Assembly: GCA_009694305.1 (NCBI GenBank)
Contig: SHVL01000016.1
Span: forward strand, 1-49,235
Direction of reading: 5' to 3'
From: Thermoleophilia bacterium
GTDB taxonomy: Bacteria; Actinomycetota; Thermoleophilia; Gaiellales; Gaiellaceae
DNA: 49,235 bases
Shown here piece after piece: positions 11,962-19,533 of this stretch. The position numbers and the translations under genes are program-made. Under the pieces are notes generated by a model, which had not been told where the DNA came from, did no database searches, and saw nothing but the letters and a program-made list of their open reading frames with translations. Each line of letters opens with the position of its first letter. The stretch's first letter is position 1.

Positions 11962-12176
11962 GAGCAGACCGTACTCGCGCTCTCGGACGGCCTCTGGAAG
12001 GGCGTGACGGAATCGCGGCTCGAGCAGGGTGCTCGAGCCGCGAGGCGATTCGACGTGCCGGTGAGCGAGGACGTCGGCCTCGACGATGCGATCGGCCAGG
12101 TGCTCGACCTCGCGCTGACCGGAGCCGAACGGCTTGCGTGCGTCTGATCTCACCCGGGTTCCGTGCGGCCGCACTG

Positions 12177-12182
12177 TAGAGT
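12177..12182 (+). promoter_or_regulatory. -10 hexamer TAGAGT for the SufT-like gene
   Basis: TAGAGT ends 7 bases before ATG 12190; no ribosome-binding site is present, so a leaderless start is likely. Confidence 0.45.
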
Positions 12183-12189
12183 GGTGCGA

Positions 12190-12489
12190 ATGGTCACAGA
12201 AAATGATGTCATCGAGGCGCTCCATGGTGTCGAGGATCCGGAGCTCGGCATGGACATCGTCGAGATCGGTCTCTTCTACGAGGCGGAGATCAGTGGTTCC
12301 AACGTGAAGGTCATCCACTCGCTCACCTCGATGGGGTGCCCGGCCGGGCAGATGATCCAGGAAGGTATCCACGACGCTGTCGCGGCACTGCCGGGCGTCG
12401 AGAAGGTCGAGGTCGAACTGACGTTTGACCCGCCGTGGACTCCCGACAGGATGTCGGAAGACGCCAAGTTCATTCTCGGGTTCGGGTAG
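12190..12489 (+). CDS. MIP18/SufT-like iron-sulfur assembly protein
   Basis: This 99-residue protein of the DUF59/MIP18 family starts MVTENDVIEALHGVEDPELG and continues MDIVEIGLFYEAEIS. The characteristic DPELGMDIVEIGL occupies about residues 16-28. The conserved Cys motif LTSMGCPAG has C50, and the C-terminal strand-loop LPGVEKVEVELTFDPPWTPD is typical. Family members (PaaD, SufT, MIP18) act in Fe-S cluster biogenesis or delivery, with the Cys exposed in a hydrophobic pocket. No suf genes lie nearby. The start is ATG 12190, preceded by a -10 hexamer at leaderless distance. Confidence 0.9.
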   Translation: MVTENDVIEALHGVEDPELGMDIVEIGLFYEAEISGSNVKVIHSLTSMGCPAGQMIQEGIHDAVAALPGVEKVEVELTFDPPWTPDRMSEDAKFILGFG

Positions 12490-12685
12490 CAGGCGGGGTC
12501 TCGCACGCGCGTTGCGGCCCTGTCGTCTCCGCAGACCCGCGCCCCGGCTCTCCTCTTTACAAGTCGTTGTTCTCCGGTTACGTATTGGATGTGATGCGAT
12601 GTGAGGTCACGAGGGGCTGCTGTCCTCGAGACGCTTTTCGTTGGGTAGGAAATTCCGGGTTCATCGAAGGCAAGGGGTCTGCTGG

Positions 12686-12781
12686 ATGGTTCAACGTCTT
12701 CTAGGGCTTGCCGCGGTCGTTGCAGTCACGTCAGTCGTGACTGCCGTCGTTCTCACCACGGACACGGGCACGAGTCCCTAG
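12686..12781 (+). pseudogene. Signal-peptide segment ending at an in-frame TAG
   Basis: ATG 12686 has a good ribosome-binding site (AAGGGG, 12673-12678, about 8 bases upstream) and encodes 31 residues. MVQRLLGLAAVVAVTSVVTA is followed by VVLTTDTGTSP, a convincing Sec signal or anchor. It stops at TAG 12779-12781. The same frame continues without interruption into the large extracellular protein (next codons CAG TCG GGT, then Ala/Pro/Ser-rich sequence). The large protein has no signal of its own. The simplest reading is one gene, 12686-15097, split by a CAG-to-TAG type nonsense change, a consensus error or a recoded amber codon. Confidence 0.7.
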
Positions 12782-12838
12782 CAGTCGGGTGCTGCTCCTG
12801 CCGGCATCTCCGTCGCGTCGAACGGGCCTGGCCCGCCG

Positions 12839-15097
12839 GTGCAGCGGTTCGACGAGGTGCATCATGACACCTCGCCGCCCCTCAGGGGCATTACCCCGAA
12901 GCCGGTCCCGGCGAGGCAAGGTGAGACGGGACTCGTCCGCGAAGACATCCTGCCGCATCCAACAGGTGGTGGAACGGACCCCGTGACTCAGCGCTCAGGG
13001 CGTCCGAGCGCCTCGGGTGCCACGGCCCTCCTCAGTCCGGCGGTAGCGGCCGGCTTCGACTCGGTCGGCAACGGTTTCAGCGGCCCCCAGGGCACGTTCG
13101 TGAATCGGTATGCACCACCGGACATCAACTCTGCGGTCGGCCTCAACGAGGTGTTCACAACCGTGAATACGTCGTTTGCGATCCAGAACAAGGCGGGCGC
13201 GGTGATCTACGGCCCGGCCGCGGGCAACACGCTGTTCACCGGCTTCGGCGGCGCCTGCGAGACGAGCAACGACGGTGACCCGGTTATCCGCTACGACCGT
13301 GCGGCGAACCGCTGGGTCTTCACCCAGTTCGTCGCGAGTACGCCATACCTCGAGTGCGTTGCCGTCTCGACGACGGCGAGTCCGACAGGCACCTGGAACC
13401 GTTACTCGTTCCCCTACAAGAACTTCCCGGACTATCCGAAGCTGAGCGTCTGGCCCGACGCATACTACGTAACGTACAACCAGTTCAGGGGGGGCACGAC
13501 CTTCGTGGGCGCGCTGTCGTGCGCAATGGACAGGGCGAAGATGCTCGCCGGCCTCGCCGCAACGCAGCAGTGTTTCAGCACCTCGACGGTCTATGGAGGG
13601 CTCCTACCCGCCGATCTCGATAGCGCTGCGGCGCCACCGAGCGGTGCGCCGAACGTTCAGGTTGCCCTCGGCACCACGAGTACCTCGCTCGCATACTGGA
13701 AGTTTCACGTGGACTGGGTCACTCCGGCGAATACCACCTTCACCGGCCCGACGAGCCTCGCGGTCGCGTCGTACACACCTGCCCGCAACGGCGGCACCTG
13801 CATCCCGCAGTCCGGTACCACGACCAAGCTCGATACGCTGGGTGACCGCCTCATGTTCCGCCTCGGGTACCGCAACTTCGGCGACCACGAATCGCTCGTC
13901 GTCTCCCACGCGGTGACGGCCGGAAGCTCTGTCGGCGTGCGCTGGTACGAACTGCGCCTCAGCGGACAGAACCCGACTGTCTATCAGCAGGGCACCTACG
14001 CCCCCGACAGCTCCTACCGGTGGATGAGCTCGATGGCGATGGACCTGGTCGGCAACATCGGGCTTGGCTACTCCAGGTCGAGTAGTTCGCTCACGCCTGC
14101 CACCGTCGTGACCGGACGACTCGCCGGTGACACGCTCGGGTTGATGACCCAGGGCGAGACGACGCTCGTCACGAGCGGTGGCTCCCAGACAGGCAACCTC
14201 AGTCGCTGGGGTGACTACTCGTCGATGAACATCGACCCCGCCGGCGATTGTACTTTCTGGTATTCGTCCGAGTATCTGAAGGCGAGCGGCTCGTTCAACT
14301 GGTCTACTCGCATTGGCTCGTTCACCCTGCCGGGTTGTCTCTCGATCAGCGACAGCTTTTCGCTGTCGGTCAATCCGACTGCAGGAACTGTCACCCAGGG
14401 GTCACCCACGACGGCATTGGTCGGCACGACCACGACGTTCGGCAATCCGCAAACGGTGGCCCTTACGGCATCGGGGTTACCTGCAGGAGCGACAGCGACG
14501 TTCTCCCCTGCATCGTTCACCTCGGGTGCGAGTTCGACAATGACCGTCGCCACGTCGTCGTCTACGCCGGCCGGCACCTACGCCGTCTCTGTCACGGGCA
14601 CCGGCACAGCAAAAAATACGAGCACGCCGTACGTCCTCACCGTGAACAATCCTACCTCGAACGGCATCACAAACGGTGGCTTCGAGACGGGCTCGCTCGT
14701 GCCCTGGCTCTCCGTCGGAACCAATGCCGTCACCAGTTCCGGGCCGTATCTCGGCATGTACACCGATCTCAGCGGCTCGACCTCGGCAACGAACGGCGAC
14801 TCGGCCATCTCGCAGACCTTCGTGGTGCCAAGCGGTAAGACGAGGGTGTCGGCCTCGTACAAGATGTTTTGCTCCGGCAGTGTGGCCAACGACTGGGCGA
14901 CGATCACGCTGACGAACACCTCGACCGGCGTGACGTCCACGCTCCTTGCCAAGACCTGCTCGACGAAGTCGCGTTTTAGAACCGTCTCGGCGACCGTGAC
15001 CGCGGGCATGACCTACACGATCACGCTGACGAACCACGACGACAACAACCCTGCCAACCCGACCTACACCTGGTTCGACAACATCGTTCTGACCTAG
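12839..15097 (+). CDS. Large extracellular protein, beta-rich, Ig-like and jelly-roll-like C-terminus
   Basis: The longest reading after the TAG at 12779 starts at GTG 12839 and gives 752 residues, but the true gene probably begins at 12686 (see the signal-peptide entry). The large N-terminal part is rich in Gly, Ser, Thr and aromatic residues (VIRYDRAANRWVFTQFV, YPKLSVWPDAYYVTYNQF) and looks like a secreted beta-propeller-like domain. Next comes an Ig-like module (VNPTAGTVTQGS, LTASGLPAGATATFSPASFT, STPAGTYAVSVTGTG). The C-terminal domain of about 150 residues starts at ITNGGFETGSLVPWLSVG, a pattern common in carbohydrate-binding-like jelly rolls. No catalytic motif is recognised. It is convergent with the secreted repeat protein at 15201. 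Confidence 0.75.
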   Translation: MQRFDEVHHDTSPPLRGITPKPVPARQGETGLVREDILPHPTGGGTDPVTQRSGRPSASGATALLSPAVAAGFDSVGNGFSGPQGTFVNRYAPPDINSAVGLNEVFTTVNTSFAIQNKAGAVIYGPAAGNTLFTGFGGACETSNDGDPVIRYDRAANRWVFTQFVASTPYLECVAVSTTASPTGTWNRYSFPYKNFPDYPKLSVWPDAYYVTYNQFRGGTTFVGALSCAMDRAKMLAGLAATQQCFSTSTVYGGLLPADLDSAAAPPSGAPNVQVALGTTSTSLAYWKFHVDWVTPANTTFTGPTSLAVASYTPARNGGTCIPQSGTTTKLDTLGDRLMFRLGYRNFGDHESLVVSHAVTAGSSVGVRWYELRLSGQNPTVYQQGTYAPDSSYRWMSSMAMDLVGNIGLGYSRSSSSLTPATVVTGRLAGDTLGLMTQGETTLVTSGGSQTGNLSRWGDYSSMNIDPAGDCTFWYSSEYLKASGSFNWSTRIGSFTLPGCLSISDSFSLSVNPTAGTVTQGSPTTALVGTTTTFGNPQTVALTASGLPAGATATFSPASFTSGASSTMTVATSSSTPAGTYAVSVTGTGTAKNTSTPYVLTVNNPTSNGITNGGFETGSLVPWLSVGTNAVTSSGPYLGMYTDLSGSTSATNGDSAISQTFVVPSGKTRVSASYKMFCSGSVANDWATITLTNTSTGVTSTLLAKTCSTKSRFRTVSATVTAGMTYTITLTNHDDNNPANPTYTWFDNIVLT

Positions 15098-15169
15098 AGC
15101 CTAGAGAGAAGAAGGATGCGCAGTGCCCGGGGGCCCATGTGGGTGTGGGCCGCTGGAGCCGAGCAGCCT

Positions 15170-15188
15170 GTCACCGAGCGGAGGTGAC
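15170..15188. terminator. Weak hairpin between convergent genes
   Basis: GTCACC (15170-15175) and GGTGAC (15183-15188) form a 6-base-pair stem with a 7-base loop between the two convergent secreted-protein genes. There is no T-tract, so this is a tentative bidirectional terminator. Confidence 0.3.
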
Positions 15189-15200
15189 GGCCTGACGTAC

Positions 15201-15812
15201 CTATGGTGACGTTGACGGCGGCAGCGGCGTCGTCGGACTGGCCGCGGGTGCCGCCGGCGTGTACGCGCAGATCACGTAGCCTGCGAGCCGTTTCTTGCCG
15301 GTGGAGCTGCGGGCTGTGACGATCCAGCCGGTCGCCTTTCCGCGGTCGTCTACGGCATTCGTGCCGTCCGAAGGTGCCGAGTTGATCAAGCTGCCGTAAA
15401 AATCGTTGCCGACGTACTCCGTCTTCGTGGTCGAGAGGAAGCCGCCGCCACCTCCAACCGGCACCTGGTCCGGGTCGCACAGAATCACCAGTTGATGCTC
15501 GCCGAGGGTCATGACGTCCTTTGTCTGTCGGCGAACGACGAACGCCGTGGCCGCCGGAACAGTCCCGGGGGCAAGATCACCGGGCTTGATGGTGCCGTTC
15601 CTGATCTGCGCGCCGGTGACTGCGCCCGATCTGATCTTCTCGGCGGTGACGGCGTTCTCTCGCAACTGTGTGGTGCCGACGCTCAAGGGGGGGAGAACGA
15701 CATTTCTGACGGCCTCGCCGACACCGGTGAACCCGAGCGCCGCAACGGCGAGGGCGGCCAGTGCGAGGCCACGAGAGAGGGAATCACGCATCGTGGTGCG
15801 TGAGTACGTCAT
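15201..15812 (-). CDS. Secreted protein with short AVTxxxIRxG-type repeats
   Basis: This 203-residue protein has an N-terminal signal (SRGLALAALAVAALGFTGVG). A short repetitive stretch follows (QLRENAVTAEKIRSGAVTGA, then QIRNGTIKPGDL) of the A-V-T-x-x-x-I-x-x-G kind seen in many actinobacterial surface and tail-like proteins. The rest is a beta-rich domain (QLVILCDPDQVPVGGGGGFL, GWIVTARSSTGKKRLAGYVI) ending in a Pro/Thr/Ser tail. I chose ATG 15812 because AGGAG lies 11 bases upstream; ATG 15791 is an alternative and the frame is open to 15908. The function is unknown; an exported surface protein is likely. Confidence 0.75.
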   Translation of the reverse strand: MTYSRTTMRDSLSRGLALAALAVAALGFTGVGEAVRNVVLPPLSVGTTQLRENAVTAEKIRSGAVTGAQIRNGTIKPGDLAPGTVPAATAFVVRRQTKDVMTLGEHQLVILCDPDQVPVGGGGGFLSTTKTEYVGNDFYGSLINSAPSDGTNAVDDRGKATGWIVTARSSTGKKRLAGYVICAYTPAAPAASPTTPLPPSTSP

Positions 15813-15873
15813 CGGCTCACGGTCTCCTGCCGGGCGAACGAGGATCCGGGCTCCCCACACGGAACAGAGGCGC

Positions 15874-16911
15874 ATGCACGCGCACATCGAGGCACCTGCT
15901 CCCGTCACGGCCGCCGAGCTCAGCGGCTATGCGCTCGAGGTCGGCCTCGACGTCATCGGCGCTGCCCCCGCGTCGGCATACGTCGAGACCGAGCAGCACA
16001 TCCGCGCCCGCCACGGTCAGGGCCTCTTCGCTGACATGAAGTTCACGATGGCACGGCCCGAGGTCTCCTGTCATCCCGAGTTGCTGCTCGACGGCGCCGC
16101 GCGGACGGTCGTCTCGGCTGCGCTGTGCTATTTCGTTGACGGTCCCGACCCCGGTCAGGACGAGGGCCGGCTGCCCCGGTATGCGTGGCGCGACCACTAC
16201 GCGATCCTGCGTGAGCGCCTGGACGATCTCGGGCAGCGTCTCGGCGGGAGCTACTGCGTTCTCGTCGATGCCAACCAGCATGTGGACCGGGAGGGCGCGC
16301 GCCGTGCCGGCCTCGGGTTCTACGGCAAGAACACGATGCTGATCACGCGCGAGCATGGCTCGTGGGTCGTGCTCGGTACGCTCGTCACCGATGTCGAAAT
16401 AGAGCCCTCGGCGCCGCTCGACCTCGACTGTGGGCGCTGCACTCTCTGTATCGACGCCTGTCCGACGGGGGCTCTCGACGAGCCCGGAGTGCTCGATGCG
16501 AACCGGTGTCTCTCGTACTGGACGCAGGCTCCAGCCCCCGTTCCGGAGGCCTATCGTGAAGAGCTTGGCGCCTCGGTCTACGGCTGTGACATCTGCCAGG
16601 ACGTCTGCCCGTGGAACCGTGGTGTCGAGAAGCGCCGTGCCGGCCTACCGCTGCCCGAGGGCGCGGTACCGAACGTCTCCCTCCTCGAGTGGCTCGGCCG
16701 TGACGGTGCCGATCTCGTCGCCGATCTCGACCGGCTCTACGTGCCACGCAACGATCCACGTTGGCTGCAGCGGAACGCGCTCCACGCACTCGGCAACACG
16801 GGCAACGCCGAGAGTTTGACAGACCTCGGGCGGTGGCTGGGCAGCGACGATCCGATCCTTGCCGATGCGGCCGCCTGGGCAGAAACACGGATCACCGGGC
16901 GCACGTCTTGA
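15874..16911 (+). CDS. queG: Epoxyqueuosine reductase
   Basis: This is a 345-residue cobalamin- and Fe-S-dependent enzyme that reduces epoxyqueuosine to queuosine in tRNA, the last step of the pathway. Two ferredoxin-type clusters are visible: CGRCTLCIDACP (C186, C189, C192, C196), and C238, C241 and C245 in CDICQDVCPWN, with the remaining ligand probably C212. The N-terminal cobalamin-binding domain contains the family pattern VDREGARRAGLGFYGKNTML. A HEAT-like tail (LQRNALHALGNTGNAESLTD) contacts tRNA in the family. ATG 15874 has AGAGG upstream. queA and tgt lie at 29027-31172, so the queuosine genes are split. A small histidine kinase gene starts 2 bases downstream. Confidence 0.95.
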   Translation: MHAHIEAPAPVTAAELSGYALEVGLDVIGAAPASAYVETEQHIRARHGQGLFADMKFTMARPEVSCHPELLLDGAARTVVSAALCYFVDGPDPGQDEGRLPRYAWRDHYAILRERLDDLGQRLGGSYCVLVDANQHVDREGARRAGLGFYGKNTMLITREHGSWVVLGTLVTDVEIEPSAPLDLDCGRCTLCIDACPTGALDEPGVLDANRCLSYWTQAPAPVPEAYREELGASVYGCDICQDVCPWNRGVEKRRAGLPLPEGAVPNVSLLEWLGRDGADLVADLDRLYVPRNDPRWLQRNALHALGNTGNAESLTDLGRWLGSDDPILADAAAWAETRITGRTS

Positions 16912-16913
16912 GC

Positions 16914-17537
16914 ATGGCCCGGCTCGACATCTTGGCGCACGAGCTGCGGAGCCCTGTTGCAGCGCTTGACGCGATAGCGGCGGCCTATGGGACAGCCGAT
17001 GCCGCGACAAGAAGCCGTCTCGTCGAGATTGCCTGTGCGGCCGGATCGAACATCGATCGACTGCTCGCCGATACCGAGCTAACGTCGCTCAGGGTCGGGC
17101 GTGTAGATGTCTCTCGTCTCGTCAGCGACGTCGTCGAGACGGCCGCTCTCGTGGGTGCCACGGTCGTGTTGCGGGCGGAGACAGGCCTTGTCGTCGCTGG
17201 TGACACCGCGAGGTTACGGCAGGCACTTGTCAACCTGATCGACAATGCAATCGGTCATTCGCCCGCCGGGGGAACCGTCACCGTGACGGCCCGGCGCATC
17301 GGTGCCTCGGTCGCAATCGCCGTCATCGACGAGGGCGACGGAATCGGCCCCGACGATCTCGAGCGGATCTTCGATGAGGGTGTGCGGCTCACGACCACGA
17401 GACCGGGATCCGGGCTCGGGCTCGCCGTAGTGCGCGAGATCGCGGCGGTACACGGGGGACTTGTCGAGGTCGAGTCGAGCGAGGGTCAGGGTGCGACGTT
17501 CACGCTCGTGCTGCAGGGCGCTTTCGCCGAGGACTGA
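16914..17537 (+). CDS. Compact soluble histidine kinase without sensor domain
   Basis: This 207-residue kinase core begins directly with the H-box, LDILAHELRSPVAALDAI, with the phospho-acceptor H9. It continues to the HATPase domain: N-box LVNLIDNAIGHS (about 104-115), G1 DEGDGIGPDDL (about 139) and G2 GSGLGLAVVREI (about 165). No transmembrane helix, PAS, GAF or HAMP segment is present, so the input must come from a partner or from the dimerisation helices. No response regulator adjoins it. ATG 16914 follows the queG stop by 2 bases, so it is cotranscribed with queG. Its 3' end overlaps the end of the convergent pafBC gene by 38 bases. Confidence 0.85.
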   Translation: MARLDILAHELRSPVAALDAIAAAYGTADAATRSRLVEIACAAGSNIDRLLADTELTSLRVGRVDVSRLVSDVVETAALVGATVVLRAETGLVVAGDTARLRQALVNLIDNAIGHSPAGGTVTVTARRIGASVAIAVIDEGDGIGPDDLERIFDEGVRLTTTRPGSGLGLAVVREIAAVHGGLVEVESSEGQGATFTLVLQGAFAED

Positions 17538-19533
17538 AGCCCAGTTCGAGCTGGAGCTCCTTCGCGCGCGCGGCGACCCTCGCGCGCATGTCGGACGGCT
17601 CGAGGATGATCGTTTCGCCACCGTCGGCAAGCACCTCCGACAGCAGCCACTCATCGGTCTTGAAGAGGATGTCCGAGAGGGCCGCCTTGTCTGTCAGCGC
17701 GCGGCCACCACGTTCGAGTTTCCAGCGTGCGACGACCGGCGAGTGCCAGAGCCGGGCAAGCCGCTGCTCGTAGAGGTAGCGCGGGTCGAACCCTTCTCGC
17801 GGCTCGAACAGCGTGTCCGTCAGCCTGGCCGAACGCATCCGGTCGAGTCGATACGTCCGCGGCCCATCGGCTGTTCGATCCCAGGTGTGGACGCGCCAGA
17901 CCGGCAACTCTCGCTCGAAGGAGTATGGCTCCACCGACCTCATGGTGGGCTGGTCGTCACCCTCTTTCAGGTACTCGATCTCGACGACGCGGCGCTTCTC
18001 GACCGCATCCGAGAGCGTGCGCACGAGGCGCTCCTCGGCATCCTCGGCGTCTCCGGTCGAAGCGCGCGGTAGGTCGAACTGCCCGAACGTCTCCTCGAGC
18101 TTCTTCCGGACGCGGTCGAGGGGTGTGTGTGCCTCGGCGGCAATGGTCGGGCCGACGTAGTCGATCGCAAGGCTGATCGCCCGCGCTTCGAGCGGTGTCA
18201 GCTTCGGTGGTCGCCGGAAGACGTCGCCGTACAACTCCTTGTCAACCTGCACGATGCCTTCCTCTTCATCGACCTCGGCGTACACCGTGTAACACCCGCC
18301 GCCGAAGTTGACGAGATTGAGCAGCGACAGTGTCTCCTGGAGTTCCTCGCGCGGGATCGAGAACCGTGAGGCGAGGTCGTCGGCATCGAGTTGTGCATCC
18401 CGCTCTTCGCCACAGGCAGAAAGGACATGCGCGAGGAGGGCCTGCAGGACACCGAACCGCTCGGGAGCGATCGGCCCGACCGGACGGTCGCCGCGGTCGG
18501 ACGGTGGCTCGGCGCGTCGTTCGCGCGCGATCGTCGGGCACGCGCCATCATGACCCGCCCGCAGCCGGCTCAGCCCGTCGGCGACTGCGTCCCGCAACTC
18601 CTTCGGCGCGAGAGGAACGGCGCGGCCGTTCTGTCGGAGCACCCAGCCTGCGAGCGTCTCGATGCGTGCGAAGCCCGTTTCGAAAACACCGTCTTCGAGC
18701 GTGCCGGCGTCGGCGAGCGTGCGGCGTACCCACCATGCGGTGTCGCCCTGAACAGCGATCCGGGCCGTGCCGGCGATCTCGCCGATCTGCCAGGGCCGTG
18801 GTACGCGGTGTGCCTCGACATCGAACGCCGGAGGCAACCGGAAGTCTCGTTCGCGCCGGGTCGCAAAACGGATGTCGCTGCGGATCCGGGAGACGCGGAA
18901 CGTCCGGACGGCAGCGTGGTCGAGATCCTGGCCGACGACGTACCAGATGCCCTCGTCGAGGCGGAGTGCATACGGATTCAGGACGCGTTCGCCGACTCTG
19001 TCTCGCTGCGGCGACCAGTAGGAGAACTTGATCGTACGCTGCTTGGAGATCGCCGACTCGAGCTTCGAGAGCCGCCCGGCGAGCTCGGGCGAGTAGTCGG
19101 GTGCGTTGACGCGGACGCGCTCGGCAGTCTCCGTACGAGCCTCGTGGAATCCTGGCCTGCCGAGCGCGAGGTTCTGGAGCGCGAGCCGCAGAGGCTCCGC
19201 GTAGGCGAACTTGCCGTCGAGGTAGAACAGCGCCGTTTGGAGGGCGGCTAACTCATCGTCCTTCAGGTCGAGACGGTCGAGGAAGTAGTTCTCCGACCGT
19301 AGGGTGTAGAGCTCCTCGCCGGTGAACTCGTCGCGGTGCGAATGCAGAGGGATCCCGAGCGCCGTCAGTTCCGCACGGTCGGAATAGAAGCGACGCGCAA
19401 ACGCCTCGTCGGACATCTCCGAGTAGCCCTCGACGTTGCCCTTCACGTCGCGAGCAGTCAGCGGTCGGCGATCGGCCATCAGGAAGGCGACGAGCGAGAG
19501 CTGACGGATGAGCTTGTCGGTGTCGTGTGACAT
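17500..19533 (-). CDS. pafBC: Fused PafB-PafC WYL-domain transcription regulator
   Basis: This 677-residue protein holds two HTH-WYL modules in tandem. Module 1 (about 1-330) has the HTH segment DTDKLIRQLSLVAFLMADRR, then LTARDVKGNVEGYSEMSDEA. Its WYL domain contains TIKFSYWSPQRD, LNPYALRLDEGIWYVVGQD and TFRVSRI. Module 2 (about 365-677) repeats the plan: ERFGVLQALLAHVLSACGEE, VEIEYLKEGDDQPTMRSVEP and RTYRLDRMRSARLTD. In mycobacteria PafB and PafC are separate proteins forming a heterodimer that activates the RecA-independent DNA-damage response; here they are one chain. The ATG lies 11 bases after TAAGCT, suggesting a very short leader, and a perfect inverted repeat lies further upstream at 19561-19578. 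Confidence 0.9.
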   Translation of the reverse strand: MSHDTDKLIRQLSLVAFLMADRRPLTARDVKGNVEGYSEMSDEAFARRFYSDRAELTALGIPLHSHRDEFTGEELYTLRSENYFLDRLDLKDDELAALQTALFYLDGKFAYAEPLRLALQNLALGRPGFHEARTETAERVRVNAPDYSPELAGRLSKLESAISKQRTIKFSYWSPQRDRVGERVLNPYALRLDEGIWYVVGQDLDHAAVRTFRVSRIRSDIRFATRRERDFRLPPAFDVEAHRVPRPWQIGEIAGTARIAVQGDTAWWVRRTLADAGTLEDGVFETGFARIETLAGWVLRQNGRAVPLAPKELRDAVADGLSRLRAGHDGACPTIARERRAEPPSDRGDRPVGPIAPERFGVLQALLAHVLSACGEERDAQLDADDLASRFSIPREELQETLSLLNLVNFGGGCYTVYAEVDEEEGIVQVDKELYGDVFRRPPKLTPLEARAISLAIDYVGPTIAAEAHTPLDRVRKKLEETFGQFDLPRASTGDAEDAEERLVRTLSDAVEKRRVVEIEYLKEGDDQPTMRSVEPYSFERELPVWRVHTWDRTADGPRTYRLDRMRSARLTDTLFEPREGFDPRYLYEQRLARLWHSPVVARWKLERGGRALTDKAALSDILFKTDEWLLSEVLADGGETIILEPSDMRARVAARAKELQLELGFSPRRKRPAARA

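Follow-up and report, generated by a model that had tools for sequence, protein, structure and literature searches.

Interrupted reading frame

An in-frame stop codon between an export signal and the protein to be exported may mark a recoded gene or a gene that has recently been broken. This question is raised by a locus on contig C45 of a Thermoleophilia genome (2.47 Mb, 98 contigs); the contig, at its full length of 49,235 nucleotides, is referred to as the window. Coordinates refer to the forward strand unless stated otherwise. An earlier note on this DNA had pointed out a start codon with a ribosome-binding site and a short leader that runs into an amber codon. This was confirmed in the sequence: ATG 12686 is preceded by the Shine-Dalgarno-like AAGGGG (12672-12677) with a spacer of 8 nt, and is followed by 31 codons for a leader resembling a signal peptide or signal anchor (MVQRLLGLAAVVAVTSVVTAVVLTTDTGTSP; 12686-12778) and then by TAG at 12779-12781.

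The leader was described in that note as a convincing Sec signal, which holds for its positive n-region and long hydrophobic core, and its position agrees with the leaders of homologues. It does not hold for the cleavage site, as no clear AxA signal-peptidase site is found ahead of the TAG. An A-P-A site lies shortly 3′ of it, suggesting that the cleavage site of the leader may be situated beyond the stop, in which case cleavage would perhaps need the post-stop sequence. The coding sequence of the leader also contains a perfect 9-bp hairpin with a 5-nt loop (12722-12744), and the leader RNA at 12700-12778 folds better than its shuffles (z −2.4).

Past the TAG, the frame continues with QSGAAPAG and stays open for 771 codons (12782-15094; one fewer than previously counted), with a G+C3 of 0.81, encoding what appears to be the mature extracellular protein. 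It ends at TAG 15095-15097, which we regard as the genuine terminator, since the C-terminus is conserved and homologues end at residue 770-771. The premature TAG falls in a linker, as had been proposed; the linker is poorly conserved, and residues 1-14 after it are predicted to be disordered. The downstream part indeed has no signal of its own and no start backed by a convincing ribosome-binding site: neither of the in-frame codons GTG 12839 (12839-12841, the first past the TAG) and GTG 12857 has a good Shine-Dalgarno sequence.

Homologues of the interrupted gene

The window's genome holds a single copy of the gene, and no compensating paralogue was found in it. Homologues are present in genus, family and order mates, and a profile search of the family genomes gave matches in 41 of 103, many of which cover single domains only. 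A wider search returned at least 581 related stretches across many phyla, of which 80 were kept. The closest full-length homologue is 59% identical, and a scan of contigs gave nothing closer than ~62%. Viral contigs yielded no relative, and a viral origin was rejected on this ground.

An HMM built from 37 family members aligns with 12734-15088 in a single frame, straight through the TAG, and GAAPAG in the sister homologue L086 aligns with the first residues after the stop, in line with the single frame that the earlier note had read across it. Of the 76 homologues checked, 75 begin with a hydrophobic leader that reads into the mature chain in the same frame, uninterrupted by a stop. The exception, L136, looks leaderless and directly follows another gene, so that its N-terminus is unclear; it has no stop similar to TAG 12779. 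The unbroken passage from leader to mature chain in the 75 homologues, together with the in-frame alignment of the profile across the TAG, shows that the two pieces were once one gene.

None of the ~80 relatives examined has a stop at this position. Sense codons run across the region in the relatives, a result that the earlier note had named in advance as the mark of a mutation or an error. From the genomes compared here, TAG 12779 is private to one genome.

Genomic context and origin

In the five genus mates for which the locus was fetched (G001, G003, G004, G005 and G006), the FeS-assembly (FeS_P) gene and a QueG-like gene lie 0.15-1.4 kb apart and the interrupted gene is absent; the relative orientation of the two flanking genes is altered in two of the five. 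In the window, the FeS_P gene occupies 12163-12489 and is separated from the QueG-like gene by a 3.4-kb insertion (12490-15870), making this a variable locus. The insertion carries the interrupted gene and a convergent ORF on the reverse strand (15201-15908), which encodes a 235-aa protein, probably exported, without a Pfam or NCBIfam match. In a phylogenetic tree, the gene is sister to L086 and L099 (support 100/98) within a wider clade of Acidimicrobiia/Streptomyces-type sequences (100/97), apart from the genus and family mates. Because it groups with other Actinomycetota in this way, the gene was probably acquired horizontally.

Signs of loss were found on the other side of the FeS_P gene. 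At 11998-12144, ~0.5 kb before ATG 12686, lies the 3′ remnant of a 2-phosphoglycerate-kinase-like gene (its last 50 codons, 67% identity), which is whole in G001, G003, G005 and G006. The neighbour of this kinase gene (~423 aa, no NCBIfam match), which we take to be cyclic 2,3-diphosphoglycerate synthetase-like, is absent from the window's genome. The remnant and the missing neighbour together imply that ~2.9 kb or more has been deleted here, and the insertion with a deletion so close by points to a segment of recent gain and loss. Further along the window (17500-19533, reverse strand), two WYL-type regulators are fused in one 677-aa ORF, a PafB-PafC-like fusion that is also seen in genus mates.

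Decoding of TAG in the genome

The genome decodes TAG in the standard way. RF1 is intact and scores above its curated cut-off, and a second, RF2-like match is also present. EF-Tu, SecA and S13 all terminate in TAG, as do 51 of 130 long ORFs. A suppressor tRNA had been suggested, but none of the 38 tRNAs in the 97% complete draft has the anticodon CUA; PylS gave a weak match below the cut-off, as in most control genomes, and no true PylS was found. The genome thus has neither the CUA tRNA or PylS nor the loss of RF1 that would signal amber suppression, pyrrolysine insertion or reassignment, and a change of the genetic code was rejected, with RF1 present and core genes ending in TAG.

The site itself also lacks the features of a recoding signal. 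The earlier note's suggestion of phase variation was dropped, as there is no homopolymer, simple or short repeat, slippery tract or invertible element at TAG 12779. The RNA 3′ of the stop folds no better than shuffled sequences (z −0.65 and 0.88), by which a downstream readthrough stimulator was rejected. Programmed readthrough, likewise raised in the earlier note, gained no positive support: the stop is not conserved in relatives, and no stimulatory RNA structure follows it.

Explanation of the premature stop

The earlier note had listed nonsense mutation, base error, phase variation or readthrough, and re-initiation as possible causes, and as a list of candidates this is supported. The stop most likely reflects a recent knock-out of the ordinary kind, or a variant at the level of strains, and not a novel mode of decoding. 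Specifically, we favour one nonsense mutation of recent date, either fixed or still segregating in the population, in a dispensable gene that was acquired by horizontal transfer and encodes an exported multidomain beta-propeller protein (probability roughly 0.64). Translation would begin normally at ATG 12686, yield the 31-residue leader and halt at TAG 12779, where RF1 would terminate it; the short hydrophobic peptide would presumably be degraded. Export of the mature protein would be essentially nil, background misreading aside, and the gene would either have become a pseudogene very recently or represent the null allele where strains are polymorphic. Both the loss of function and the degradation of the peptide are inferred. 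As expected of a nonsense pseudogene or null allele, the homologues are intact with a sense codon. The gene also behaves as accessory, being absent at the locus in five genus mates, with gene loss nearby.

The age of the stop was estimated from the frame that follows it. Since a stop would arise from 2.9% of the single-base changes possible across the 771 codons, a second lesion is expected after ~1-5% neutral change (95% bound), whether or not indels are counted, and no further lesion was seen. Provided that selection no longer acts on the gene, the unbroken remainder of the frame means that the stop is young, at most ~1-5% neutral divergence.

Two considerations speak against the nonsense mutation: a consensus error would look identical, and 771 codons that have stayed open, with a strong coding bias, also fit a gene that is read through under selection. 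An error of base calling or consensus, or a mixed-strain consensus, in this metagenome-type assembly would leave the real gene intact. The 98-contig draft (97% complete, 2.7% contamination), the sense codon in every relative and a lesion that stands alone in a gene without other flaws agree with such an error, but the site lies mid-contig and outside any homopolymer or repeat. Moreover, no convincing internal stop was found in the ~597 kb sampled, a test limited by antisense shadow ORFs, so that the assembly does not seem generally error-ridden. Surveys for other interrupted genes, based on codon composition and on G006, gave no clear second case, though the same shadow ORFs make them noisy and they yield no clean rate. 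We consider a consensus error unlikely. Readthrough that is functional, with a few per cent of ribosomes misreading the TAG and little full-length protein being exported, is a still less probable explanation. Bacterial RF1 terminates weakly at a TAG with C as the next base, as is the case here, and the long coding frame beyond the stop has stayed intact. Against this, no homologue shares the stop, the downstream fold is unremarkable, and both a CUA tRNA and a PylS above the cut-off are lacking. Bacterial in-frame stops retained with dN/dS < 1 have been reported in a large-scale study, although its authors hold many of them to be short-lived (Belinky et al. 2021, PMC7918605). The gene resembles those cases in having one in-frame TAG, an otherwise intact frame and relatives with sense codons. 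It differs from their prime example, whose TAG is common to several genomes, in that the TAG is seen here in one genome only.

A more far-reaching form of this idea, in which selection maintains the amber codon as a throttle, appears very doubtful. Low-level readthrough by ordinary near-cognate tRNAs in competition with RF1 would then set the exported amount, and the stop between leader and mature chain would act as an export valve. Should other strains be found to share the stop, with selection acting downstream, the locus would be a natural setting in which to test cleanly whether stop codons throttle expression. Re-initiation at GTG 12839 or GTG 12857, giving a functional cytoplasmic protein that is not exported, is similarly improbable. 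The first of these codons immediately precedes the first strand modelled with confidence (residues 21-24), and its product could fold; however, the ribosome-binding sites are poor, the leader and domain content mark the family as extracellular, and no homologue uses such a start, except perhaps L136. Reassignment of TAG to an amino acid throughout the genome can be dismissed: only the open frame speaks for it, whereas RF1 is present, a CUA tRNA is missing, and the core genes named above and the interrupted gene itself end in TAG. The case is chiefly cautionary, as a stop between export signal and cargo mimics recoding and yet all tests for a decoding trick were negative.

Predicted structure and family

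An AlphaFold2 model of the protein, built with 37 sequences (mean pLDDT 86.8), starts to fold near residue 21 after the TAG. It predicts a beta-propeller domain (13040-14326; pLDDT mostly > 90), which matches many propellers with VIA-align Z scores of ~20-22, followed by an Ig-like domain (14354-14647) and a jelly-roll, carbohydrate-binding-module-like domain (14672-15094). Sequence searches against Pfam, NCBIfam and PDB gave no confident family; the jelly-roll region has a weak match to NTTRR-F1, below the cut-off. Judged by its fold alone, the protein may have an extracellular role in the binding of polysaccharides or glycans.

The top Foldseek matches were to the three-domain sialidase of Micromonospora viridifaciens (1eut / 2ber), an actinobacterial exported protein in which propeller, Ig-like and jelly-roll domains follow one another as they do here. 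Identity to this enzyme is ~11%, however, and the whole-model superposition is poor. The protein here lacks the FRIP motif, the Asp boxes and a Pfam match, and its assignment as a GH33 sialidase was rejected for these reasons. The seven-bladed propeller lectins PLL/PHL of Photorhabdus share the propeller fold (Z ~21), but at ~10% identity this match is to the fold in a generic sense only.

Exported beta-propeller proteins of this family are widespread, occurring in Actinomycetota, Chloroflexota, Acidobacteriota, Pseudomonadota and others. This unnamed extracellular family, which sequence searches link to no Pfam or PDB entry, may merit annotation. Across its members (12782-15094 and loci L081-L160), the motifs RWGDY and DYPK are near-invariant.
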